Assembly: GCA_014382695.1 (NCBI GenBank)
Contig: JACNJF010000127.1
Coordinates: forward strand, 1 to 32,884
Source of the DNA: Gammaproteobacteria bacterium
GTDB lineage: Bacteria; Pseudomonadota; Gammaproteobacteria; GCA-001735895
Length of the DNA: 32,884 bases
Direction of reading: 5' to 3'
Part shown: in pieces, positions 15,810 through 32,884 of the stretch
Layout of the letters: each line of letters opens with the position of its first letter
Numbering within the stretch: position 1 is the stretch's first letter
Program-made: the position numbers and the translations under genes
The notes under the pieces: generated by a model
Told to the model about the DNA's origin: nothing
Databases searched by the model: none
The model's input: the letters and a program-made list of their open reading frames with translations, nothing else

Positions 15810-18800
15810 TTTCTAAGCTGCCTGTGCGGCAGTGAACAATCAAGACCAAAGATAATTGCATGATAATGATTTCTAAGCTGCCTGTGCGGCAGTGAACCTC
15901 AATCAGCATTAACAATAATACTGCTAATTTTTCTAAGCTGCCTGTGCGGCAGTGAACGATGGTCTTTATTTTCACATAATCCTGGAGGTTTTCTAAGCTG
16001 CCTGTGCGGCAGTGAACGAGCCGGGCGCGGCAAAGTATCGCTTTAAAGCTTTCTAAGCTGCCTGTGCGGCAGTGAACGCTGGCTTATTAGGTGGCTTTGA
16101 GCGTGTACGTTTCTAAGCTGCCTGTGCGGCAGTGAACGGCTGTTGTTTGTTGGGTGGAGCGCTGATGAATTTTCTAAGCTGCCTGTGCGGCAGTGAACAA
16201 TAACCCCAGCTGCTCATACTCCCCAGGTGCATTTCTAAGCTGCCTGTGCGGCAGTGAACTCGATATCGACGTTGTGCGGGCGTCCTGGGTATTTCTAAGC
16301 TGCCTGTGCGGCAGTGAACTAAGCGGCAGAGTCGTACGTGACGTCTCCAATTTTCTAAGCTGCCTGTGCGGCAGTGAACCAACAAGGTCATAAAGCTTGT
16401 CGTAATAAGCTTTTCTAAGCTGCCTGTGCGGCAGTGAACACTTGGCGTTTCAAAGTCTATTGTCTCTAATTTTTCTAAGCTGCCTGTGCGGCAGTGAACC
16501 TGAAAATAATCAGCGGCGCGCTGTTGCGTGTTTTCTAAGCTGCCTGTGCGGCAGTGAACGCATTAGAGGAAAACGGCAACGAACCAGGCGCTTTCTAAGC
16601 TGCCTGTGCGGCAGTGAACAAGGCTTTTCCCTATCGATTCCGGCCCTATCTTTTCTAAGCTGCCTGTGCGGCAGTGAACCACCATAAACGCCCACGGCGG
16701 CGGGTTTTTGTTTTCTAAGCTGCCTGTGCGGCAGTGAACGTTCTAAAAGTTAACTCGTGAGCCTTATCATATTTCTAAGCTGCCTGTGCGGCAGTGAACA
16801 CAACCGACATTATTGAAATATATCGGATTATTTTCTAAGCTGCCTGTGCGGCAGTGAACTAAGCGGCAGAGTCGTACGTGACGTCTCCAATTTTCTAAGC
16901 TGCCTGTGCGGCAGTGAACCAACAAGGTCATAAAGCTTGTCGTAATAAGCTTTTCTAAGCTGCCTGTGCGGCAGTGAACACTTGGCGTTTCAAAGTCTAT
17001 TGTCTCTAATTTTTCTAAGCTGCCTGTGCGGCAGTGAACCTGAAAATAATCAGCGGCGCGCTGTTGCGTGTTTTCTAAGCTGCCTGTGCGGCAGTGAACG
17101 CATTAGAGGAAAACGGCAACGAACCAGGCGCTTTCTAAGCTGCCTGTGCGGCAGTGAACAAGGCTTTTCCCTATCGATTCCGGCCCTATCTTTTCTAAGC
17201 TGCCTGTGCGGCAGTGAACCACCATAAACGCCCACGGCGGCGGGTTTTTGTTTTCTAAGCTGCCTGTGCGGCAGTGAACGTTCTAAAAGTTAACTCGTGA
17301 GCCTTATCATATTTCTAAGCTGCCTGTGCGGCAGTGAACACAACCGACATTATTGAAATATATCGGATTATTTTCTAAGCTGCCTGTGCGGCAGTGAACT
17401 CAGGGCAATGATGGCTATAGTTTTCATGACGTTTCTAAGCTGCCTGTGCGGCAGTGAACTTAAATCAATGTCAACAGTAGCCGAAGCTACCTTTCTAAGC
17501 TGCCTGTGCGGCAGTGAACATTTTACTGCGGATGCGTGGCGTGGCGATGACTTTCTAAGCTGCCTGTGCGGCAGTGAACGTTACTGGACCCTGACACTCG
17601 CAGCAGCAGCGTTTCTAAGCTGCCTGTGCGGCAGTGAACTCCAGTTATTTGTCATCCACCTTGCAGAGCTTTTTCTAAGCTGCCTGTGCGGCAGTGAACG
17701 GTTGATAGTACAGTTATTTACAGGACTCCAATTTCTAAGCTGCCTGTGCGGCAGTGAACATAACGACCAGTCTTCATCGCAGTGTACGCATGTTTCTAAG
17801 CTGCCTGTGCGGCAGTGAACATTGTGCGCTCTGCTACAGGGTTTCCTTTCAATTTCTAAGCTGCCTGTGCGGCAGTGAACCATTGACAGCATGGGACTCT
17901 GGATCTGCTGGATTTCTAAGCTGCCTGTGCGGCAGTGAACGTAGGCAGGTGGAAAGGTGGAATATACGCTTGTTTCTAAGCTGCCTGTGCGGCAGTGAAC
18001 GGGTTCTTCCTTGATGAGTTACTTCATCAGACTTTCTAAGCTGCCTGTGCGGCAGTGAACCGTTATCAACATCAGCGTGGAGATTTTCGTATTTTCTAAG
18101 CTGCCTGTGCGGCAGTGAACGTAATGTGGAAACTTCAAGGTTCACTTTAGTATTTCTAAGCTGCCTGTGCGGCAGTGAACTCCGGTTTCCGCATTACCGG
18201 GGCGCTGTTACGTTTCTAAGCTGCCTGTGCGGCAGTGAACATGTAACTGACCCGGTATTATTAAGCTCTTTTTTTCTAAGCTGCCTGTGCGGCAGTGAAC
18301 GCGCAGCCTCGAAATCTTTAACAACTTTGTATTTTCTAAGCTGCCTGTGCGGCAGTGAACTCAGCATCAGCACCCCAACGCTCGACCATAACTTTCTAAG
18401 CTGCCTGTGCGGCAGTGAACGAAAAAGTGCAACTGCGTGCATCGCAGGAACATTTCTAAGCTGCCTGTGCGGCAGTGAACTAGCGCAGCTGGGCATATAG
18501 CGCGGCATCGGATTTCTAAGCTGCCTGTGCGGCAGTGAACTGCGGATTTTATAGCCGGCTGTTTTTTCAGCCTTTCTAAGCTGCCTGTGCGGCAGTGAAC
18601 TCGGGCGGCACGCTGGCGCAGGATTACGACCTTTTCTAAGCTGCCTGTGCGGCAGTGAACGATCGAAGCTTGAACGCTGATGTTGGACAGGTTTTCTAAG
18701 CTGCCTGTGCGGCAGTGAACCTACTTCGGGGAAAAACGCTCCCAAGCAGATATTTCTAAGCTGCCTGTGCGGCAGTGAACATAACAGCGACAGCTCATTG

Positions 18801-19080
18801 ATTCGCGTCAAGTTTCTAAGCTGCCTGTGCGGCAGTGAACGGGTTTGGTGGGGGCTCTGTAAATGCTCCAACTTTCTAAGCTGCCTGTGCGGCAGTGAAC
18901 ATAACGCCGGAAATTTACAACGCAAACCCAGATTTCTAAGCTGCCTGTGCGGCAGTGAACGTTAGGCTTTGCAGCTGTGCGCTGGCGTTGATTTTCTAAG
19001 CTGCCTGTGCGGCAGTGAACAGCCCGCTGGACGCACCACGCAGCACAGCCTTTTTCTAAGCTGCCTGTGCGGCAGTGAAC
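15810..19080 (-). CRISPR. type I-F CRISPR array, 55 repeats and 54 spacers
   Basis: Repeats are 28 bp and, as far as I can read, all 55 are identical. In transcribed (reverse) orientation each begins GTTCACTGCC and ends CTTAGAAA. The middle forms a 5-bp stem CTGCC/GGCAG with loop GCACA, the hairpin cut by Cas6f, leaving the 8-base handle CTTAGAAA. Spacers are 32 bases except three of 33 (16138-16170, 16199-16231, 17760-17792). The leader is at the right end (beyond 19080), next to cas6f, so the newest spacers are at the right and the oldest at the left. Nine spacers occur twice, leaving 45 distinct. No spacer target could be assigned by eye. Confidence 0.99.
16320..17399. repeat. tandem duplication of nine spacer-repeat units inside the array
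   Basis: Bases 16320-16859 are repeated without change as 16860-17399: two 540-base copies of nine spacers each in the same order. With the flanking repeat the identity runs 569 bases (16292-16860 against 16832-17400). Unequal crossing-over between identical CRISPR repeats explains it; an assembly error is the alternative. Confidence 0.97.
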
Positions 19081-19338: not shown

Positions 19339-19914
19339 TCAAAACCAGGGGACTGTCGCGGTTATGGATAGACCGTAACAATTGAACGAACCCTCTACAG
19401 CGCTTAGGTTCACTTCTTTCTCTATAATCAATCTCCATTGCTCACCTTTCGACAGGCTTTTCAAATTGATATAAGGCAATTTACTCTGCTCGTTTTCAAA
19501 ACCTTCGAAATGCACCAAAGCGTGTTCGTAGCTTTCACTTTTTCGCTTCGCTCTGCGCCGCGCCAGTCGCTCAACATTGCTACTGAACTGCTTACGCCTG
19601 AACACGGCGTACTCTGTCACTGCGGGGATTGGTTTTATTGATGTGTAGTGGCAATAGTCACTGAGACGGTTAAGCCACTTCGATAAATTCAAGCCTTCCA
19701 ACCAAGTTGCTTCTTCGGCCAATAAGCGCAGTTTGCTTCCTAATGGAAATGCCTTGCTACCATATTCTGGAAACGAAACAGCAACCAGCGAATGATTCTC
19801 GCCCACCTTGTTTTCAACAAGCGCCAGGTGAATTTGTTGATAGACCTTTTGCCAGAGGAAGCCTAGATTGGCCTCGGCATCCGGGAGCAGGGTTATGTCG
19901 CAATAGTGTTTCAT
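19339..19914 (-). CDS. cas6f: Cas6f (Csy4) CRISPR RNA endonuclease
   Basis: A 191-residue type I-F processing nuclease that cuts pre-crRNA 3' of the repeat hairpin and stays bound to the crRNA end in the surveillance complex. The catalytic histidine H29 (YQQIHLAL) is at the same number as in Pseudomonas Csy4. The serine loop is kept at S153/S155 (LKSLSKG). The arginine-rich helix that grips the hairpin is ERLARRRAKRK (115-125), and the protein ends in the family tail CYGLSITATVPWF. It follows cas7f with a two-base gap and is the last cas gene before the leader. Confidence 0.96.
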   Translation of the reverse strand: MKHYCDITLLPDAEANLGFLWQKVYQQIHLALVENKVGENHSLVAVSFPEYGSKAFPLGSKLRLLAEEATWLEGLNLSKWLNRLSDYCHYTSIKPIPAVTEYAVFRRKQFSSNVERLARRRAKRKSESYEHALVHFEGFENEQSKLPYINLKSLSKGEQWRLIIEKEVNLSAVEGSFNCYGLSITATVPWF

Positions 19915-19916
19915 CC

Positions 19917-20906
19917 TTATTCACCTTCCGAAAACACACCACCACGAATAAGCATTGCGACAACAAAGTGCTTTTCAATATCAGACAAATCATCATCATT
20001 CATCCATTTTGTGAGCAGGGTTTTGAAGTCATTCCGGCTTGAACGGTAGGCTACGCCACGTTGCGTGACAGAACCATATGCTTCAATTGCTATAGGTGAT
20101 TCTGAGCCTGTTTGCCAGTCATCGATTGTTCTTAGAGCATTGCCGATTTTTTCACAATGCATTGCAGCGTTACCATCCAATGCAAACAAATGGCGGCTTT
20201 TTTCTCCTTTAGGAATTTTCAATACCATTTCCTGGGAAGGCCAAACCCGCTGCCGGTTTCCCAGTTTTGCATAGGCATCAACTTCAATAAAAATATTGTT
20301 ATCATCATTTAAACCTTGCTCAATTATGCCGCCAAGTGTTGCAACACTATCGTCCTCTGAAGATGCTTTATTTAACGGGTAATCGTAAGCATTGAAGATG
20401 AGAGGGGAATCCAGGCTATTGTGTTTAACATAGATAATGATTTCTTGAGCACCGACACGATTGCGCCAAAGGAACCGTCCATTAGCGATGTTACAGGCAT
20501 ATCGATTGGCTAATTCTCCAAATCCAATATCACTTTTATAGCTATCAATCACTCCAGTAAACTTATCCTGGTAGTCTTTTTTATTACAGGCAGACGGTTT
20601 ATTAATACCACCCAAAACACGTAAACTAAAGCTAACTCTCAAAGTATCCCTATTCGATGGTAATGTAGCATCATCGCCCCATGACAGGTTGGGCTCTTCT
20701 ATCTGTTTTTTTAACTCTTCCTCATCGTTTAATACTTCCTGTTTAAAGTTACTCTTAACCGCGCGATTTCTACGATCAAATAATTCAATTGGCTCCCAAC
20801 CATTCGTTTTACTGATCTCACTCCAATTACCTGAATACATAACAGCATCCGAAGGTTCGAGCTTACGATCAAAAGATAATACGGTAGGCATTGTTAATGT
20901 AGGCAT
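19917..20906 (-). CDS. cas7f: Cas7f (Csy3) backbone subunit of the I-F surveillance complex
   Basis: A 329-residue protein that polymerises (six copies in the characterised Pseudomonas complex) along the crRNA spacer. Strong family signatures are LSFDRKLEPSDAVMYSG at the N-terminus, the central LRVLGGINKPSACN, then NIANGRFLWRNRVGAQ, KIGNALRTIDDW, and IRGGVFSEGE at the end. Length is close to the 342 residues of the Pseudomonas protein. The start at 20906 is fixed by AAGGAG seven bases upstream, inside the 12-base gap after cas5f. No residue looks abnormal. Confidence 0.97.
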   Translation of the reverse strand: MPTLTMPTVLSFDRKLEPSDAVMYSGNWSEISKTNGWEPIELFDRRNRAVKSNFKQEVLNDEEELKKQIEEPNLSWGDDATLPSNRDTLRVSFSLRVLGGINKPSACNKKDYQDKFTGVIDSYKSDIGFGELANRYACNIANGRFLWRNRVGAQEIIIYVKHNSLDSPLIFNAYDYPLNKASSEDDSVATLGGIIEQGLNDDNNIFIEVDAYAKLGNRQRVWPSQEMVLKIPKGEKSRHLFALDGNAAMHCEKIGNALRTIDDWQTGSESPIAIEAYGSVTQRGVAYRSSRNDFKTLLTKWMNDDDLSDIEKHFVVAMLIRGGVFSEGE

Positions 20907-20918
20907 AGTGATTTCTCC

Positions 20919-21950
20919 TTAAAGGTTTGACAGCGCTGTTTGAAAATCAAGGGTTTCACTTTCTTCAGAAAGTGATGTTTGTTGTGAAGATTTTTTTGTT
21001 GTTTCTTGAGTGCATAGATACCAATCGTTATCAGGTTGATATCTCCAAATAATCTCATTGATATTAGTTATCCGATGCATGCTTTTCCATTCTCCAATCG
21101 TATGTACCGCTTCCACAAAACGTGATGGTGTCTCGGCGTCACGGGTATTGGCTACCTCGCCTGCTGGGTAGACCTGACTGATAGCTTTGTATCCCGTCAT
21201 TATCGGAACTAACCAGCCTTTTTCGGGTTTTGCTAATAATTCCCAATCAGCATCTGTTTCTGCTGTGGCTTCGAGTTCATTTTTCTTAAGCTTAGGTTGC
21301 GCCTGATATTTCATCGCTGAAAAATCCAACCAGCCGTCGAGTAGTCCTGCATTTTCATCCATTTCTTTTAATCGTTGAAAATGCCTTTTTAAATATTCTG
21401 AGCGATCCTTTAAGACGAAGCCCGGCATTGTAAGTCGTTTAAGTTTTTTGGTTAATTTGTTGAGCTGTTCATTGGTTGATGCGGACAATAAATCAATCCG
21501 GCCTATTGATAGTATCGTGCCGCCTGCGAATCGACTTTTTAAGCAGTGCGCTAAAACAGCCTGTTTCAATTGTTTTATCGACGCCTCATTAGTGGTTAAT
21601 TCTTTTGAAACCTCAATAACCATCGAAGTGGTTAAATTCATTTTCCCTTCTTCAATAATAGAAGGAGTTTTCATTAGTCCCTTGTCAAATTTAGGCTTAA
21701 ATGTGTACGAGCCTTTACTCTGTAAAAATTCAAAGTTGGCTCTGGGGCTTGGTTTATAAACGCGTAATTGATAATCATGGCTGACAATAGCGCAGCCACC
21801 TAAAGCAATATCGAATGTTGCTGATAGTTGCCGCTGCATTGCATGAGTAAATCCAAGATAATGAGTAATAGCTGGGAAGCCCCAGGTGAAGCCCGCAATG
21901 CAATTGGCATTTTGAATTTGTATGCGACTTAATACTAAGTACTGGCTCAT
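20919..21950 (-). CDS. cas5f: Cas5f (Csy2) subunit of the I-F surveillance complex
   Basis: A 343-residue protein that, with Cas8f, caps the 5' handle of the crRNA and helps PAM recognition. The N-terminus MSQYLVLSRIQIQNANCIAGFTWGFPAITHYLGF is characteristic of Csy2, with HAMQR and GGCAIVSHDYQLR following. I chose the ATG at 21950. It lies four bases after the cas8f stop, with GGAG seven bases ahead, and begins at the conserved strand. The frame extends upstream to 22001, but that part overlaps the end of cas8f and has no family match. The Ser/Thr-rich C-terminal tail (STKKSSQQTSLSEES-like, about the last 35 residues) looks like a disordered extension. Confidence 0.95.
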   Translation of the reverse strand: MSQYLVLSRIQIQNANCIAGFTWGFPAITHYLGFTHAMQRQLSATFDIALGGCAIVSHDYQLRVYKPSPRANFEFLQSKGSYTFKPKFDKGLMKTPSIIEEGKMNLTTSMVIEVSKELTTNEASIKQLKQAVLAHCLKSRFAGGTILSIGRIDLLSASTNEQLNKLTKKLKRLTMPGFVLKDRSEYLKRHFQRLKEMDENAGLLDGWLDFSAMKYQAQPKLKKNELEATAETDADWELLAKPEKGWLVPIMTGYKAISQVYPAGEVANTRDAETPSRFVEAVHTIGEWKSMHRITNINEIIWRYQPDNDWYLCTQETTKKSSQQTSLSEESETLDFQTALSNL

Positions 21951-21954
21951 TACA

Positions 21955-23463
21955 TTACTCCTGTGTAGCGATGAATTCGCGAAGCTGAGGACTAAACACA
22001 TCTTTCCACAGACGCTGCTGAGTGAGTGTCAAATTCAATTGTTTATGCTTGAGCTGTCTATTTAACCACTCTGCAAAATCGTCAGAGACTTCAGACAGCC
22101 ATTGCTTTTTATTTCTCTCTTGAATTGCCTCCTCATCATCCCTACCCGGCTCCAGAAGTAATTGCTGGGGTAAAGTCAGCGAAGATTTTTGAGTCCAGCC
22201 TTTTTCATTGTTTAATAAACTGAACTTTATGATTTCAACAAAAAAGGCCTGAGCAATGTCACTTACATACCCCACGATAGCCTGGTGCATTTCAGGCTTT
22301 TTACTACCGATTCCTTTGGATTTGATGACTAATAATAAGCGCTGCAAGTCTTTTACTTCGTCCTTCAATTTGAAACTCAACTGCCGATTAAAAAGATTGG
22401 TTTGATTCAGGGAAAGTTTCTCGTTTGATTGCCATTTGGGTGGTGAGCAGGGTAATAGTGTTAGCTCTCCAAAACGATCTTTATTAAGGGATGAAATATT
22501 GCTATGCGCCTTTACGCTTCGAGTAAGCGTTAAAGTTGCCTTATTGGAATAAGAAGTTGCAATCTTTTCGTCAAATTTCTTCTTGCTCTTTTGCTCTCTA
22601 ATTGATTTATGCCCTTCATTAGATAGCTCCCTAAATTTTAAAAATAGAGCATGTGCCATTGTTGACGATACTAATGGCAATAATAGATGGTACTGCTGGT
22701 TTTCAATTGGGTAATAAACTTGCTTCGATAGGAAATGACTGGTTTTATGATCACTGTCGTAAGCTTGTTTAAAACATGAAATCCAATTCTCTATATATTC
22801 CTTGTTGTCAGTTAAATGCTCAAAGGCTGTTCGATCATCTTCTTTAACATAATCTAGCAAGCTTTTGTCGTTGATTTGAAGCGTCAGGATTTCACCAGCT
22901 GGGGCAGATGCGGCATTGGCAGTTGCAGTGTCAGTCTCCAGCCACTTAAGCATATTTGTCGTTAAATAGGCATGATTAGACGATGTGGTTTTATCAAAAA
23001 TACTCGAGCCTTTACTACTGGAGTGTGTGAGCTTGGCGACATGTGTTGCAAAACTGATATCACTAGCTTTTACTGCCCACTGGTTTAGCCATGCAGTGGG
23101 GACGTGCTCTTGATTAATGATATGTAATGTTTCTCTGTACTCCTGGGTAATATCTAAAACCAGGTTATCTATTTGATGTTCGCCCAATAAAAACAATAGT
23201 GCCTGATATTTACTTTGTTGAAATTCAAGCGCAGATTGAGCTTTGTCCTTCTTTTTGCTGATTAAAATCTTTAGTGGCTCATGTGACTTTCCAAAAAAGG
23301 TTTCTGCAGCCTTAGTCAGACGAATATTAATGCCTCCTATGCCTTTATTAGGTTTTTCTTTTAACAGCGCCAATTCTTTTTTATCTCGACGTTCAGAAAT
23401 ATAACGACTAATTTCTTGCGCCATTAGTTTTGATTCATCACTACTATTCATCAATATACTCAT
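21955..23463 (-). CDS. cas8f: Cas8f (Csy1) large subunit of the I-F surveillance complex
   Basis: A 502-residue protein in the csy1 position, larger than the roughly 430 residues of the Pseudomonas protein. Csy1 is the fast-evolving subunit that reads the PAM and recruits Cas2-3. Recognisable family stretches include FFGKSHEPLKILISKKKDKAQSALEFQQSKYQALLFLLGEHQ-like text near residues 56-97. Others are KQVYYPIENQQYHLLLPLVSSTMAH near 245-270 and LTLLPCSPPKWQ near 335. It overlaps the end of cas2-3 by 20 bases. The in-frame ATG at 23451 is an equally good start because AAAGG almost touches the first ATG. Confidence 0.93.
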   Translation of the reverse strand: MSILMNSSDESKLMAQEISRYISERRDKKELALLKEKPNKGIGGINIRLTKAAETFFGKSHEPLKILISKKKDKAQSALEFQQSKYQALLFLLGEHQIDNLVLDITQEYRETLHIINQEHVPTAWLNQWAVKASDISFATHVAKLTHSSSKGSSIFDKTTSSNHAYLTTNMLKWLETDTATANAASAPAGEILTLQINDKSLLDYVKEDDRTAFEHLTDNKEYIENWISCFKQAYDSDHKTSHFLSKQVYYPIENQQYHLLLPLVSSTMAHALFLKFRELSNEGHKSIREQKSKKKFDEKIATSYSNKATLTLTRSVKAHSNISSLNKDRFGELTLLPCSPPKWQSNEKLSLNQTNLFNRQLSFKLKDEVKDLQRLLLVIKSKGIGSKKPEMHQAIVGYVSDIAQAFFVEIIKFSLLNNEKGWTQKSSLTLPQQLLLEPGRDDEEAIQERNKKQWLSEVSDDFAEWLNRQLKHKQLNLTLTQQRLWKDVFSPQLREFIATQE

Positions 23464-26400
23464 CCTTTGTCAGTTCCTTAAAAACGCCCAAATTTTCGTG
23501 ATATTTCCAACGAGCAACTTCATCGTTGCTACTTCTTCTCAGTTGAAGATGTGAAAACTTTTTATATGCATAATCTTCTGAAATGTCGAAGAGAGCTATT
23601 AACCGATTCATGCTTTTGGTAATGGACAGGTCGAACCAGGAAACATTGTTTTCTGCCATTAATAAATCTTTAGAGCCTAATGTGTAAATATCAGTGCTCG
23701 TGTCATATTTTGCGGGATATTCGCGCGGTCTCTTTTTTTGCCAAATACATTTTTGGTGATAGCTCATATTAAAGTTGTAATCGTCTGTTACCTGCGACTG
23801 CCTAAATGGCTGATTTCTCTGTATTTCACCGCTCCAGGTTACATGATTTTGCCACCATAATTTGGCAGAGTTTTCTTCATTTTCGTTACCAAAGAGTCTG
23901 ATGTGTTGGACGATATGTTCGAGTTCATTAAAGCTTTTAAATCTCTTGGGTATGTCATCAGTCAATGCAAAAGGTGGTGAAATTCTAGCAATTCTCGGAA
24001 TCGCACTGATCGTAGTATATTCATTCTCACCCAAGAGGTTTGAAAGTAGAGGGCTATAAAATCGGCGCTGAGCAGTTTCAAAACCAGGACGGCAATAAGC
24101 AGGTGATTCACCTTTTAGAGCCTTAAAATTTTCATCCAGAATAAAAATGTTTTCAGAGATTGGGATTTGTTTTCTATGCCGCTGTACACGCCCCGCCAAC
24201 TGTATGATTGAGCGCATTGAGCTTGGCTCCACAATGGCCCAGTCGTAGTCGTGATCGCGCCCAACTTCGGCGACTGAGGTCGCCAATACTACAAAGATAT
24301 GATTAGTAAGGTGGCTGTTATTGATCGTTTCTTCAATACCGCTGTCTTTCCACCATTGTGTTTCATCATGGCGGGAAAGCGCCTTGTCGAGATTTTCTTC
24401 AATTTGCGAGCGCAACGCTAGCGGATATTGACTGTGGTAGACACAATAATAAATTTTCGTATCTTCTGAAGATTGTATGGCATACAAGTGTTTAGCTACC
24501 GAAACTAACGGATCTATATTCGCCATTCTTATCAGGCCAATCGAGACCTTCTTTTGGGAACTGTGTACAACGCAATTTAGTTGATGCAGCGGGGCGATTG
24601 ATGAATGAATGGTATGTGCAAAGACTTCACTGGGCTTTAAACCTTCCTGCATGCTGATAGGAATAATTTTTGCCTTTCTTAGATTTTCCGCTTTATTGGT
24701 GAGCTTATCAATTCGGCTGTTGATGAATTTTGTATGTGCCGCGCCAAAATCATCGAGTGAGTTTACTGCGTGGCTCATGGGCTTTTTATATTCATCGAAC
24801 CAGGCGCAGCAAATCGTATCAGATACACCTTGCTCACCATTAACCTGGGTGTAGTGCTTTCGACCTTGCTGATAAGCATCAAATAATGCCGATGCTAACT
24901 CAGGTGGAATGGTTGCTGTTGATAGCAATACTTTTGATCCCAACATGCCTGCCCAATTAACGAGTCGGCATAAGGCAGGGAGGTCTTCCAGACCAAAATC
25001 ATCCGGTTCATCCAGTACCAGGTCTGAGGTGAGTAGCCTAAGCATAGGGGCTATTTGTCTTCCTCCGCGCAGGCCATCTGTTGCCGGGATCAGATAATCA
25101 ATAGTGCTTACCAGAACAGGCGCCTGTATTAATTTTAATATTTTCGCATCATGTTCAACATATTCAGCAAGAATGCTATCGTGGTCGGGGAGCTGATGGT
25201 GGAGTTGAAGCTCGTCTTTTAACAGCGACTCGGCTGACTCACTGCCTAGCTGTTGCTCCTGGCTTAGTTCTTGTTCACGACCTAATTGGTGTAAATCTTT
25301 AACGGCTTGCGAACCAATTAAAACAGCCAGTTCTGCATAGGAGAGGTGTAAATTATTTTTTAATGCTTCGCCTGTTTGCAATGTCAGTGTTCTTAAACCA
25401 AGAGCTACACTAAAGCGACATTCATTTTCCTCTGATACCCCAAACATAATACGTGCGTTTGCCCTGGTTTTACCTTTTCCGGTTGATGCCATATTAACCC
25501 CAAAAAAACCATGATCTTTACTTTCATCGCGTAGTTCCTGGGCTTTAGTAAACGCATTATCCTGCCAACCAAAGTCAGCCTTATATTCTTTTTCAACGGC
25601 TTGAGTAAATGATTTATTGGCTTTTAAGCTGGGCAATGACTTTTTCAGACCAGGGAGTTTTCTTGCAATTTTTCGGGCATGGGCACCCACGGCAATATTA
25701 TGCTCATCCAGTTTTTGTTTTTTATATTTACCTGTCTCTGAATCAAAACCTGTATTGGCATAAGCTTGATAATTCCTGTCTTGCCACTCTTTTGTTACTT
25801 CTGTTTTTGAAGAATAGTAATGATCGGAAAGCATGAGTGATAATCGCGCCAGGTGCGCGGTAAACCTTTGCTCCAGCCAGTCATCGGCAAATATTCGTTC
25901 AAGCCTTAATGTTTCATCCGCAATAATACTGACTTGCGTTTGCCATATTGCGCTTTTAAAGGGTGTCCCATAGGGAAAATGCCAATTCTGTTCAATTGTA
26001 TCTGTACCCCAATCTTCGGTAAGACATTGTGGCGAATTCCAGCAGGCCTCAAAGTATTCATTTAACCACGAATCAATATTCTGTAGAGACGGCGGGTTGC
26101 CCCCTGTTTTCGGGTATTGAGGCAGGCGATGGTGAGAAACAATCAGCCAGGCGACAATTTTTGCAATCGGCTCAAAGTTAGTAAAAGGATTCTTTATATT
26201 CGTGTTCAGGCCATCCCTTAATAATTCAAGATTTTTAAGCATGAGTTCTTCTGCCTTATTATCGATATTTTTTAGTGCCTGTAACCACTCGATATCTTTT
26301 TTACCATTAACGAAGGCTTGAAATAATCTGAATGAAACCCACTCATGTCGATAAGGCTCAAAGCCTTTTCCACGATAATCAGGCTCAAGTTTATTTTGAA

Positions 26401-26788
26401 ACAAAAGCATTGACTTTCCAATGTCATGAAAAAAACCGGCCAAACAGGCGAGTAAAGCAATAACTTCGGAATTCATATTGAAAGACTCAGCTATATCTTT
26501 TGACACCAATGTGAAATTCACCGGTACAACCCCCTGCGCATTAAACTTCCCCCTGTTCCCCACAATCCACACCAGCTCACTTCGACTCCTCGACCTCAAC
26601 CAGTGACAACTCACCGCCGTATTCTTACTCGCCGTTTTCCGCAGCAGTTTCTTCACCGCCAGCAAACCTTCATTAGTAATCACGGTTTGCCAGGTTCTAT
26701 TGCCGATCCGGTTGGCGAAGGCATCGAGCACTCTGCGTGTCCGGTTGAGGGCTTTCTTTTCGCATTGCGATACGAAGGTGACCATCAT
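23444..26788 (-). CDS. cas3f: Cas2-3 fusion (adaptation subunit plus nuclease-helicase)
   Basis: A 1114-residue type I-F Cas2-Cas3 fusion. Residues 1-90 are the Cas2 domain (FVSQCEKKALNRTRRVLDAF, RTWQTVITNEGL), which partners Cas1 in spacer integration. The HD nuclease follows (H121-D122 in FFHDIGKS, then H148 and HH219-220). The superfamily 2 helicase has Walker A STGKGKT (435-441), DEPD (593-596), STAT (623-626) and a late QLAGRVQRHR. It degrades target DNA once recruited by the crRNA complex. All catalytic motifs look intact. Its ATG shares one base with the TGA of the BRO-N gene, so translation should be coupled to it. Confidence 0.97.
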   Translation of the reverse strand: MMVTFVSQCEKKALNRTRRVLDAFANRIGNRTWQTVITNEGLLAVKKLLRKTASKNTAVSCHWLRSRSRSELVWIVGNRGKFNAQGVVPVNFTLVSKDIAESFNMNSEVIALLACLAGFFHDIGKSMLLFQNKLEPDYRGKGFEPYRHEWVSFRLFQAFVNGKKDIEWLQALKNIDNKAEELMLKNLELLRDGLNTNIKNPFTNFEPIAKIVAWLIVSHHRLPQYPKTGGNPPSLQNIDSWLNEYFEACWNSPQCLTEDWGTDTIEQNWHFPYGTPFKSAIWQTQVSIIADETLRLERIFADDWLEQRFTAHLARLSLMLSDHYYSSKTEVTKEWQDRNYQAYANTGFDSETGKYKKQKLDEHNIAVGAHARKIARKLPGLKKSLPSLKANKSFTQAVEKEYKADFGWQDNAFTKAQELRDESKDHGFFGVNMASTGKGKTRANARIMFGVSEENECRFSVALGLRTLTLQTGEALKNNLHLSYAELAVLIGSQAVKDLHQLGREQELSQEQQLGSESAESLLKDELQLHHQLPDHDSILAEYVEHDAKILKLIQAPVLVSTIDYLIPATDGLRGGRQIAPMLRLLTSDLVLDEPDDFGLEDLPALCRLVNWAGMLGSKVLLSTATIPPELASALFDAYQQGRKHYTQVNGEQGVSDTICCAWFDEYKKPMSHAVNSLDDFGAAHTKFINSRIDKLTNKAENLRKAKIIPISMQEGLKPSEVFAHTIHSSIAPLHQLNCVVHSSQKKVSIGLIRMANIDPLVSVAKHLYAIQSSEDTKIYYCVYHSQYPLALRSQIEENLDKALSRHDETQWWKDSGIEETINNSHLTNHIFVVLATSVAEVGRDHDYDWAIVEPSSMRSIIQLAGRVQRHRKQIPISENIFILDENFKALKGESPAYCRPGFETAQRRFYSPLLSNLLGENEYTTISAIPRIARISPPFALTDDIPKRFKSFNELEHIVQHIRLFGNENEENSAKLWWQNHVTWSGEIQRNQPFRQSQVTDDYNFNMSYHQKCIWQKKRPREYPAKYDTSTDIYTLGSKDLLMAENNVSWFDLSITKSMNRLIALFDISEDYAYKKFSHLQLRRSSNDEVARWKYHENLGVFKELTKDEYIDE

Positions 26789-27636
26789 CAGGTTTTATCT
26801 GTTCCTTTTTTGATGCGTTTATTTCCGGGAGGCAAGTAGTTATTGTCAGTGACCACTTTTTTACCGGTTTTTGCTTCCAGCTCTTTTCGTGCCCTTTTGG
26901 CAATATTGCCGCCTGATTTGGCGGATGTTTTATTTTCATCCATTCCTGTCGATTCATCAGTTTCGGCGATTTGGCGGGTGGATAGTTCGGCAAGTGCGGT
27001 AAAGATTAATTCTGCCTCACTCATGTGATCACGTAAATTCTGGCTGCTCAGCCCTTTAAGATTTTTGTGTTCTTTGACGCTGACTTCTGCCCATTCCTGA
27101 TGAATGATGTTGGTGAGTATGGCGAATTCTTTACCTTGTTTGATGTCATGTTCACCCCAGTAATCGGTGAGTTTGTTGCGGGTTTCCTGTCCGGTCATCC
27201 GTTGTTGTATCCACTTTTTGCTGCGGCCATGTTTTTGCCAGGTTTCCCTGGCTCGGTTCAGCGATATGGCCGGGTCTGCCATTTCCTGCATGCGTTCATA
27301 ACCCACTTTGGCTAACCAGAGCTTGATCGGCTCGGCTTTAGGGCTGGGAACGGATTGTACGAGTCGCAGTAAGGTTTCTGCGGTGGCAACGTCAGTGAGA
27401 TATTTTTTCCCGTCAGCAGCGATTAATTTCAGTCGGTGACAATCTGTCACCGACTGACTGCCTTCTTTTTTCAGTCGTTGTTTCAGCTTGTTCCAGTATT
27501 TTCTGGCAGTCTGATAATCGGCCTGTTGTGTTAATACCTGCATGATATCAATCACTGAAAACCACCATACTTCAGTATCTTCATCGTATACCCGGCGTAT
27601 CTGATAATCTTCGAATAGGGTCATGTCATCATTCAT
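26788..27636 (-). CDS. BRO-N / DinD-like protein embedded in the cas operon
   Basis: A 282-residue protein that is not a standard Cas protein. Residues 8-112 form a BRO-N domain (YQIRRVYDED, WWFSVIDIMQVL, SPKAEPIKLWLAKVGYERM), the DNA-binding fold of phage antirepressors and baculovirus BRO proteins. The C-terminal half has a DinD-like motif (LRDHMSEAELIF, 201-212) and a basic GGNIAKRARKELEAKTGKK stretch (242-260). E. coli DinD is an SOS-induced protein reported to interfere with RecA strand exchange. The gene begins directly after the cas1 stop (TAA then ATG) and ends overlapping the cas2-3 start (TGATG), so it is co-translated with the adaptation genes. Its role here, whether regulator, adaptation cofactor or passenger, is unknown. 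Codon and base composition look like those of the cas genes. Confidence 0.85.
   Translation of the reverse strand: MNDDMTLFEDYQIRRVYDEDTEVWWFSVIDIMQVLTQQADYQTARKYWNKLKQRLKKEGSQSVTDCHRLKLIAADGKKYLTDVATAETLLRLVQSVPSPKAEPIKLWLAKVGYERMQEMADPAISLNRARETWQKHGRSKKWIQQRMTGQETRNKLTDYWGEHDIKQGKEFAILTNIIHQEWAEVSVKEHKNLKGLSSQNLRDHMSEAELIFTALAELSTRQIAETDESTGMDENKTSAKSGGNIAKRARKELEAKTGKKVVTDNNYLPPGNKRIKKGTDKT
27431..27455. repeat. perfect inverted repeat inside the BRO-N gene
   Basis: The arms AGTCGGTGACA and TGTCACCGACT pair over all 11 bases around the loop ATC. It lies in codons 61-69 of the BRO-N gene (QSVTDCHRL). As RNA it forms a very stable stem in the middle of the operon; as DNA it could be a dimer-binding site. 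Confidence 0.8.
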
Positions 27637-28626
27637 TTAAACTATTTCCTGTTCGTTGTTTATGGAAGCTTTTAGATGATATGTTTCATGATGTTGTAAG
27701 GCGATTGCCTTTACCTGATCGAACATAAAATCAAGCGCCTTATGCTGGGTGAAGTTTTGCAGGCATTGCTGACGAAATTCCTGTTCGGTGGCTCCCTCTT
27801 TGGCACAGATGAAGGCCCACGGTAATACCAGTGTATCTTTGATCAGATCGGCCACATCGAACACCAGCGCGCCCCTGCGGGTTTTGCCGTGCATCACGGC
27901 GAATCCATGCGGGATGCCGAGTACCCATAGCGTGGTGGCTGCCAGTCCATAGGCCAGATAGTTGCCATGATTGAGGAAGGCATTGGCAGCGTCCACACTG
28001 TCGTGCTGACGCACAAAGTCTTTCTGTCGGGTGTTATTGGCGGCTATTTTGTACAGGCTTTTGGTGAGCTGTGCCTCCATTAACAGAAGCTTTGTGACAT
28101 CGGTGGATTGTTCTATCTGCAGGCTGAATGACGCCAGTGCACGTTGTAGATCCTGGTCATCGGTATGAAACCCTTCATTCTGTAAATCCCGGTCATGACT
28201 CCAGACGCTTTGCAGGTATTCGATGCGGCGTTGTTGGAATTGTTTGGCAACCTGAAGTCTTTTCGCTTCGTCGAACCAGAAAGCCATCCAGCCCTGTACA
28301 TATTCAGTCGGTCGATATTCACTTTGCGGGCTGAGCCATTCAATTTCATTAGCGGCTATCAGCGGCGTGCCACCAGTGCCACTGAACCCGATCAACACGC
28401 CAGCCGAGGCCAGCATTCTGACTGCCGCCTGGGTAATGGATGTACCGGTACCGAGTAGAATGCAGGTGGTATTCGCGATGGGGATATTCCAGTATTGCTT
28501 CTCGACCTTTTCTTCGGTCAGGTACAGCACGCGCCCACTTTTTTGCATGACGCGGCATTTTTCCAGATAAAAGATGTTGGCGCGTTTAGAGTGCAGAATG
28601 GCTTTCAGATCGGTTAAGGCTTCCAT
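27637..28626 (-). CDS. cas1: Cas1 (type I-F integrase)
   Basis: A 329-residue integrase that inserts new spacers at the leader end together with the Cas2 part of Cas2-3. The metal-binding active site is visible as E184 (LLMEAQLTKSLYK), H246 (FAVMHGKTRRG) and D260 (VFDVADLIKD). The H-to-D spacing of 14 equals that of the Pseudomonas enzyme. The N-terminal beta domain (AILHSKRANIFYLEKCRVM, VLLGTG-like, GVLIGFSGTGGTPLI) is typical of the I-F branch. First gene of the operon; its ribosome site is weak. The promoter must lie in the A+T-rich region to the right. Confidence 0.97.
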   Translation of the reverse strand: MEALTDLKAILHSKRANIFYLEKCRVMQKSGRVLYLTEEKVEKQYWNIPIANTTCILLGTGTSITQAAVRMLASAGVLIGFSGTGGTPLIAANEIEWLSPQSEYRPTEYVQGWMAFWFDEAKRLQVAKQFQQRRIEYLQSVWSHDRDLQNEGFHTDDQDLQRALASFSLQIEQSTDVTKLLLMEAQLTKSLYKIAANNTRQKDFVRQHDSVDAANAFLNHGNYLAYGLAATTLWVLGIPHGFAVMHGKTRRGALVFDVADLIKDTLVLPWAFICAKEGATEQEFRQQCLQNFTQHKALDFMFDQVKAIALQHHETYHLKASINNEQEIV

Positions 28627-28636
28627 GCTTCTTAAC

Positions 28637-28750
28637 TCACCTATTTTCCCGGCCTGTTAATGCTTCAGGAATCCAGTCCCCAGGCACTCGGGCGTAGGCA
28701 TTTACAAAATCTGGGGTAAGAGAATTCTGTAGCAGAGTGATTATTTGCAT
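28637..28750 (-). pseudogene. possible remnant of an IS4-type transposase N-terminus
   Basis: A 37-codon frame (MQIITLLQNSLTPDFVNAYA, then PGDWIPEALTGRENR) ends ten bases before the cas1 ATG. The DWIPEAL pattern resembles the DWI/EWI-xxAL stretch at the very start of IS4-family transposases, after which the frame is cut by TGA. The likeness is short and based on memory of the family, so a real small leader peptide of the cas operon remains possible. Confidence 0.35.
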
Positions 28751-29411
28751 GATGTCCTTATTTCTCGTAATTCATCCTGATTATAAGCGCCAGGTAGCTC
28801 ACTAGAAGAGCCACTTAAAACTATTTTCTGAAAAACTTCCTGTTTTATTATTTAAGTGCAATTCCATTTAGTCCTTGAGTAATTTACCCATATGAGATGG
28901 GTATAAAAATTAAACTATAAAGAATATTGTCATTAACAGTGCTTTTTACCCTCTCTGACAACCATCTGCAATATAATCCAGCGAAACGTCAGCCCCAATG
29001 CTTAAGTACGCCACTGCACATGATATCAATGACTCTTTTCTCTGGCATGTAGGCATAAACCGATTGATATCGTTCTCATCACCTGACAGGTAAAAAGATT
29101 GCATAAGCTGATTAGAATCTGCCGTCTGCTTGATCGCAAATAAAAAATCGACCGTAGATAATAACCTAAAGTTATTTCAGAACAGATAACTATTTGCGCT
29201 GGAAATGACGGGAATTCTTGGCTTTCAAAAAAAGCTTATCATTTTTTTTATATGCGACACCGCCAGAATGCTATGCTAATTTTTGCGTAAGGTAATCTTA
29301 ACGTGCTCACCTGACTGTGACGCACCTACCCAAGTTGCATTTCAAACAGTTCACCGATGAGAATCACCACTTACAAAGAATACTTCATGGATTCGCTCCC
29401 AAGACCATCGG
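28751..29411. other. A+T-rich 661-bp gap before the cas operon
   Basis: No believable gene is seen. The gap must hold the cas operon promoter, but no strong -35/-10 pair stands out. Short symmetric elements are present: TACCCAT-N5-ATGGGTA at 28885-28903, ACCTG-A-CAGGT at 29081-29091 and AATAAC-N5-GTTATT at 29160-29176. I see no complete insertion sequence. Confidence 0.5.
28885..28903. promoter_or_regulatory. inverted repeat TACCCAT-N5-ATGGGTA upstream of cas1
   Basis: Perfect 7-bp arms with spacer ATGAG lie about 260 bases before the cas1 start, directly beside T/A-rich DNA that could hold a -10 element on the reverse strand. Size and symmetry fit an operator; there is no direct evidence of binding. 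Confidence 0.35.
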
Positions 29412-32601: not shown

Positions 32602-32663
32602 CACCCAGAGCAGACCCTTTAACGGTATATCAGTTAGATTAAAGCGTTAGGAAAACGACTTTA

Positions 32664-32884
32664 TTATCTAGCTGGTGCTGGTGGTGCCTGTGGAGCTGGA
32701 GGAGCGCCATAAGGACCAGGACCATACATTGGAGGCATTGGAGGAGCGCCGTATGGGCCAGGACCGTACATTGGAGGAGCGCCATAAGGACCAGGACCGC
32801 CAGGACCAGGACCGAACATTGGTGGAGCACCATATGGGCCAGGACCGTACATTGGAGGAGCTCCGTATGGGCCATTATTACCAC
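32664..32884 (-). CDS. Pro/Gly/Tyr/Met-rich repeat protein, 5' end beyond the window
   Basis: The last 72 codons of a reverse-strand gene that is open at the right edge. The protein is built almost only of the repeat MYGPGPYGAPP (four variable copies, one with F for Y and one with an inserted GPG), then APQAPPAPAR and TAA. Such tails occur in structural or secreted proteins and in some sulfur-globule envelope proteins of sulfur-oxidising bacteria, which are rich in Gly, Pro and Tyr. The adjoining rhodanese fits that idea weakly. Without the N-terminus no signal peptide can be checked. An overlapping open frame on the same strand has a poorer composition. Confidence 0.7.
   Translation of the reverse strand, partial: GNNGPYGAPPMYGPGPYGAPPMFGPGPGGPGPYGAPPMYGPGPYGAPPMPPMYGPGPYGAPPAPQAPPAPAR

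Follow-up and report, generated by a model that had tools for sequence, protein, structure and literature searches.

A BRO-N gene of the candidate defence family PDC-S13 at the cas1/cas2-3 junction of a type I-F CRISPR-Cas operon and its recurrence at CRISPR adaptation modules

The type I-F CRISPR-Cas operon found in the window (the whole stretch of 32,884 nucleotides of DNA analysed here) raises the question of what a gene for a BRO-N protein is doing between cas1 and cas2-3. The system itself is complete. On the reverse strand it comprises cas1f (27637..28626; TIGR03637, E=2.5e-146), the BRO-N gene (26788..27636; 849 bp, 282 aa), the cas2-3 fusion Cas3f (23444..26788; TIGR02562, E=0), csy1 (cas8f, 21955..23463; PF09611, E=3.6e-67), csy2 (cas5f, 20919..22001; PF09614, E=1.3e-88), csy3 (cas7f, 19917..20906; PF09615, E=3.7e-109), csy4 (cas6f, 19339..19914; PF09618, E=1.9e-57) and, on the same strand, a CRISPR array of 55 identical 28-bp I-F repeats (15810..19080). 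The TAA stop codon of cas1, upstream, directly abuts the ATG of the BRO-N gene with zero gap, and the BRO-N stop codon TGA overlaps the ATG of cas2-3, downstream, by one base (TGATG). An earlier note on this DNA had described an 849-bp BRO-N gene locked in this way between the two cas genes, and the open reading frame together with the Pfam, TIGR03637 and TIGR02562 matches confirms that description.

No promoter or terminator match was detected on the coding strand between cas1, the BRO-N gene and cas2-3. The sole promoter-like match in the region 26400-29400, where such matches are fewer than in shuffled sequences, is a weak one based on the consensus only and lies upstream of cas1 (29020..29048, reverse strand). 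Strand, spacing and the absence of a promoter signal between the genes suggest that BRO-N is carried on the cas transcript. Within the array, the segments 16292-16591 and 16832-17131 share one and the same 300-nt sequence, after which the spacers recur in order; about nine repeat-spacer units (16292-17371) appear to have been copied in tandem.

The encoded protein has a BRO-N domain (residues 13-110; 27307..27600, reverse strand; Pfam Bro-N, E=1.1e-8), which forms an alpha/beta region in the AlphaFold2 model, and an all-helical C-terminal domain (about residues 122-257; 26866..27273, reverse strand), where pLDDT is mostly 80-96 against 83 for the model as a whole. The best PADLOC model, PDLC04920, covers residues 2-274 (E=2.8e-120) and places the protein in the candidate defence family PDC-S13. 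The designation 'DinD-like' given to the gene previously would seem valid at the family level only. Escherichia coli DinD matches sister PADLOC models of PDC-S13 and, like the BRO-N protein, has a BRO-N domain, a helical C-terminal half and an alignable C-terminal stretch, but direct similarity is weak: hhalign against a DinD profile aligned the C-terminal half only (E=2e-4, probability 45%), and an NCBIfam search of the protein gave no DinD match. With 23% identity and E=0.06 in BLASTP, DinD is ruled out as a close relative at the sequence level.

Sequence searches of solved structures with the BRO-N protein matched none. A Foldseek search of the PDB with the predicted fold returned six significant matches (E<0.001), all of them to DdrC of Deinococcus radiodurans (7udi, 8u0g and 7qvb; E 1e-7 to 2e-5, probability 1.0), which is thereby the only solved protein significantly matched. 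The likeness has its limits, as identity is 12-14% and the TM-scores are modest (0.28-0.42 on the query, 0.36-0.52 on the target). A DinD homologue, modelled on a shallow alignment, gave no significant match to DdrC. Viral proteins matched by the predicted fold include BRO-N, KilA-N, repressor-domain and antirepressor proteins. The BRO-N protein is predicted to bind DNA and to adopt a DdrC-like fold. DdrC is a damage-response protein of Deinococcus, encoded by a standalone gene; it forms a dimer that binds and stabilizes DNA breaks. DinD is listed among the regulators of RecA filaments in a passage of PMC4457935 that cites Uranga 2011.

The association of such genes with cas operons is not confined to the window. 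Among 369 genomes of the same class, 34 carry a BRO-N homologue, 38 an I-F Cas2-3 domain above the cut-off and seven both; in three of these seven (the window, G227 and G338) the BRO-N gene adjoins I-F cas genes. The order is cas1, BRO-N, cas2-3 in the window and G227, and BRO-N, cas1, cas2-3 in G338. Two other genomes (G239 and G083) have a BRO-N gene between cas4 and cas1 of a type I-C system, so that the gene is found at the cas locus of 3/38 I-F and 2/31 I-C genomes. Chance placement, estimated from locus and genome sizes, predicts about 0.02 adjacent cases against the three observed. Adjacency to cas genes exceeds chance.

A GTDB scan with one genome per species yielded 345 homologues, of which the best 80 were examined. 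Twenty-three lie in cas loci (9 I-F and 14 I-C; where an I-F relic lies upstream of an I-C system, the nearest cas genes decided the class), 23 beside the type I restriction genes hsdM/hsdS and 34 elsewhere; about 40% of the 80 have no recognised defence gene beside them. All of the ten closest homologues, at 80-93% identity, come from cas loci of type I-F or I-C. This is not the distribution that the earlier note had named as speaking against its proposal, namely homologues beside cas1 in this strain only and closest relatives in prophages. A prophage or phage origin was rejected, as tblastn of 50,697 phage records gave only four matches, all below 60% identity and on short gut contigs; a search of plasmids gave 13 records, again all below 60%. 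The orientation of the gene is constant in defence operons: wherever the partner was scored, BRO-N is on the same strand as Cas1f (10/10), Cas3f (14/14), Cas1c (15/15), Cas4 (15/15), HsdS (24/24) and HsdM (23/23). Outside cas and hsd loci the nearest neighbours are on mixed strands, by crude ORF calling.

A maximum-likelihood tree of 93 proteins, with SH-aLRT support and without bootstrap, assigns the protein of the window to a CRISPR-only group with 15 members (10 I-F, 5 I-C; SH-aLRT 92, not starred) that spans gamma-, beta- and zetaproteobacteria and Myxococcota. Three further CRISPR rows adjoin this group and a second I-C group, from Comamonadaceae, stands apart; restriction-linked and other rows are intermixed elsewhere in the tree. 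Clustering of the labels is beyond that of 500/500 shuffles for I-F as well as for I-C. The BRO-N gene is under strong purifying selection, with pairwise dN/dS of 0.03-0.1 (0.089 between the window and L081, its closest relative). Mantel correlations of BRO-N distances, with species history uncontrolled, are r=0.64 (p=0.003) with Cas1f in I-F loci and r=0.79 (p=0.007) with Cas1c in the I-C group sited at cas4/cas1; the correlation with Cas2-3 is not significant (p=0.14), and in the Comamonadaceae group BRO-N does not track Cas4, Cas5 or Cas7. Recurrence in cas loci on the operon strand, the CRISPR-only group, purifying selection and co-divergence with Cas1 all bear out the view that the gene in the window is not a random insertion peculiar to one strain. 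We consider it likely that BRO-N represents an embedded PDC-S13 cargo gene with a role of its own.

Co-divergence with Cas1 and the CRISPR-only group nevertheless count against a cargo gene and would also suit a dedicated adaptation factor, which would tune spacer acquisition in concert with Cas1-Cas2-3 or Cas4-Cas1-Cas2, for instance by keeping hold of the leader or of prespacer ends. That the co-divergence involves Cas1f and Cas1c and is not significant for Cas2-3, and that one group is common to I-F and I-C, argue for such a factor. So does the position of the gene: every site it takes in intact cas loci borders on the adaptation module (cas1/cas2-3, before cas1, cas4/cas1, cas7/cas4), and in the loci surveyed it was never seen inside the effector genes. 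The 55 perfect repeats of the window array suggest in addition that spacers were acquired with BRO-N present. Against this, the gene is next to cas1 in very few of the I-F genomes sampled, and close relatives occupy restriction operons without Cas1. An adaptation factor such as Cas4 or Csn2 is expected to be regularly present in its subtype and restricted to CRISPR; neither was found, given the frequencies of 3/38 and 2/31 and the relatives outside CRISPR. A dedicated adaptation factor is on balance improbable, and we similarly doubt its more specific form, in which a CRISPR-dedicated DinD/DdrC-like branch would act with Cas1 in both I-F and I-C as an accessory adaptation protein that handles the ends of prespacers or blocks RecA where targets are cut.

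The content of the junctions themselves bears on the same point. We inspected 30 I-F and 30 I-C loci. Approximately 20 of the 30 I-F loci have a plain 4-nt overlap of cas1 and cas2-3 (ATGA) with no insert; in L035 this junction is empty and BRO-N lies upstream of cas1 instead. Inserts of at least 350 nt are present at cas1/cas2-3 in 8/30 I-F loci. They are BRO-N (the window and G227), a KilA-N gene (PDC-S22) in one locus, antisense PIN-domain toxin genes in three loci (two confirmed by Pfam), a gene that we take from its sequence to encode a WYL-type regulator in one locus and, in L058, 357 nt without an ORF of at least 60 aa. The I-C cas4/cas1 junctions contain BRO-N (two loci), a ParE toxin gene, nucleotidyltransferase/HEPN pairs and an antisense PIN gene; a MazF-like gene lies upstream of cas1 among the I-C loci, and RhuM-Fic genes (PDC-S05/S23) are found just before cas4 in 3/30 of them. 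Unrelated cargo, including antisense toxin-antitoxin genes, thus enters the same junctions, and the tight fit alone is no proof of a role in spacer acquisition.

Across the loci surveyed, toxin-antitoxin modules (PIN/VapC, ParE, nucleotidyltransferase-HEPN, MazF-like), some of them antisense, were seen at cas1/cas2-3 or cas4/cas1 in L051, L053, L059, L163, L170, L178, L189 and L190, the pair in L178 and the partner antitoxins having been assigned by eye. In L073, L082, L088, L089, L118, L173, L174 and L179, from a branch of type I-C systems, a RhuM or RhuM-Fic gene occupies the interval from cas7 to cas4 or immediately precedes cas4. An ORF6N gene (PDC-S05/S23) directly follows BRO-N in L099, and in L061 the region upstream of cas1 holds a second PDC-S13 gene, this one of the DinD type.

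Such junctions allow speculation about a single-gene mobile hitchhiker, inserted neatly at the start/stop junctions of operons and kept as harmless, with defence operons being merely tolerant. Unrelated operons are indeed also occupied, presumably upstream of dnaA (L069), beside ilvH (L078) and after yebC (L077), these names having been read from N-terminal sequence, and several of the other slot inserts are toxin-antitoxin modules. In L083 (7832-8600) and L099 (7850-8400), the insert has a short copy of the cas2-3 start (ATGATGGTCAC...) before it and a complete start after it, as if insertion had duplicated the 5' end of the downstream cas2-3; a hitchhiker would fit this pattern. It would also fit the synonymous divergence: almost every pair compared shows a smaller dS for BRO-N than for its neighbour cas1 (0.45 against 1.07 between the window and L081), which is consistent with some independent exchange of BRO-N. 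On the other hand, no transposase or recombinase was recognised beside BRO-N in cas loci, and a gene kept as harmless accords poorly with strong purifying selection, with complete strand agreement within cas and hsd operons when strands are mixed at other loci, or with a CRISPR-only group in place of random scatter. We therefore think it unlikely that BRO-N is a mere passenger, and prefer a cargo gene with its own role that retains some mobility.

Three loci show how BRO-N fares when its I-F partners decay. L081 (93% identical to the window BRO-N), L083 and L084, whose full loci are L196, L195 and L197, respectively, each form a complete I-C system that has I-C repeats and a cas4-cas1-cas2 set of its own. 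In L081 and L083, a relic of the I-F module consisting of cas1f, BRO-N and a cas2-3 stump lies upstream of cas3. L083 retains an intact cas1f gene, whereas an insert of about 160 bp breaks the one in L081; the stumps match about the first 60-67 residues of Cas2-3, the one in L083 being a free-standing ORF of 94 aa whose first 67 residues match the Cas2-3 start. No cas1f or cas2-3 was detected next to the BRO-N gene of L084, which is preceded by what we take, from its sequence, to be a gene for a WYL-type regulator; this locus has a second, diverged BRO-N gene (39%) between cas7 and cas4. A hybrid system joining I-F adaptation to an I-C effector was considered for these loci and excluded, as the full loci proved to be complete I-C systems with an I-F relic upstream of cas3.

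BRO-N is intact in all three. The gene can consequently persist without its I-F partners, which again weighs against a dedicated adaptation factor, although a separate cas1c is present in the genomes where cas1f is broken or absent, and every member of this branch has a CRISPR system close by. Together with the antisense cargo in the junctions and the relatives beside restriction genes, this persistence leaves without support the earlier argument from tight fit to selection for joint production with Cas1 and Cas2-3.

A role as regulator or guard of the operon, by BRO-N/antirepressor-type control of cas expression, by damage sensing or by an addiction-like hold on the cas locus, appears very unlikely. 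BRO-N domains do occur in phage regulators, repressor-domain and antirepressor proteins are among the viral matches to the predicted fold, and toxin-antitoxin modules in the same slots are what guards would predict. However, no antitoxin partner gene adjoins BRO-N, the gene is inside the transcription unit and not at its head, and a presumed WYL-type regulator, named from sequence, is already there in seven loci. A LexA-like box was likewise not found before BRO-N in cas loci, where the best match is 13/20 (in I-F loci 12/20, within the 300 nt before the gene), which is a further difference from E. coli DinD. With no box directly before the gene, SOS control of BRO-N in cas loci was dismissed. 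In L151, a standalone relative from Rhodoferax bucti, a LexA-like box, TACTGTGTAAAAATACAGTA, which matches the consensus at 17/20 positions, lies about 65 nt upstream of BRO-N.

The most satisfactory explanation, to which we give about an even chance as a whole, is that BRO-N is an embedded, semi-mobile PDC-S13 defence add-on, cotranscribed with cas genes and acting on the breaks made by Cas3 or HsdR. In type I CRISPR operons the gene would occupy a slot at the adaptation module, and in type I restriction operons one on the hsdS side. Cas3 of type I CRISPR systems and HsdR of type I restriction systems both cut DNA with a translocating helicase-nuclease. The BRO-N protein could bind the DNA ends, nicks or gapped DNA that they leave and either keep host repair by RecA from rescuing the cut invader or clear RecA from the breaks, and in either system would thereby help to block rescue of the invader by recombination. 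Binding of breaks at Cas3 and HsdR cuts would unite the two main contexts of the gene with its predicted fold. This part of the explanation is tentative, and somewhat less probable than its opposite. The modest TM-scores to DdrC and the roughly two-fifths of near relatives that have no recognised defence neighbour weigh against the explanation as a whole.

Genes embedded in immune operons are already known as a kind. PDC-S13 is named in PMC12988326 as a 'guilt-by-embedding' candidate; it comes from the screen for embedded genes by Payne et al. 2024 (10.1101/2024.01.29.577857), and most PDCs are described in PMC12988326 as still unvalidated. The gene in the window resembles other PDC-S13 members in its full-length HMM match and as a single gene recurrently embedded in a defence operon on the same strand; it differs in that its subgroup is tied to I-F and I-C CRISPR adaptation modules. 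RhuM ORFs lie between cas1 and cas9 in a type II-C locus of Bacteroides fragilis (PMC5704556); there too a gene for a phage-type DNA-binding domain is beside cas1, but the family and the CRISPR type are different. In Btr190I of Bibersteinia trehalosi, dinD is fused to hsdS (PMC4996451), which links the DinD family to type I restriction, as do the close relatives of BRO-N, although by gene fusion and in restriction, not CRISPR. RhuM has also been reported near PrrC and restriction genes (PMC3710099).

We found no report of BRO-N or DinD in cas operons in the open papers searched. The earlier note, which knew of no described I-F variant with this gene, agrees with that literature, but the family itself is catalogued in PADLOC as PDC-S13. 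A CRISPR-bound branch across I-F and I-C was not found in the same literature, the bioRxiv embedding preprint lying outside it, and is new to the literature searched. Junctions between CRISPR adaptation genes are thus insertion slots, taken up by several different candidate defence genes as well as by toxin-antitoxin pairs, and a single branch of BRO-N has remained associated with CRISPR in both I-F and I-C and throughout several proteobacterial classes and Myxococcota. If the link to DNA breaks and RecA is true, this branch would represent a helper that type I CRISPR has in common with type I restriction, and it would make it possible to test directly whether the cuts made by defence systems are shielded from host repair.

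At the far end of the window (32639-32884), away from the operon, short-period repeats include five overlapping copies of 58 nt and are accompanied by an ORF that is open at the contig edge.
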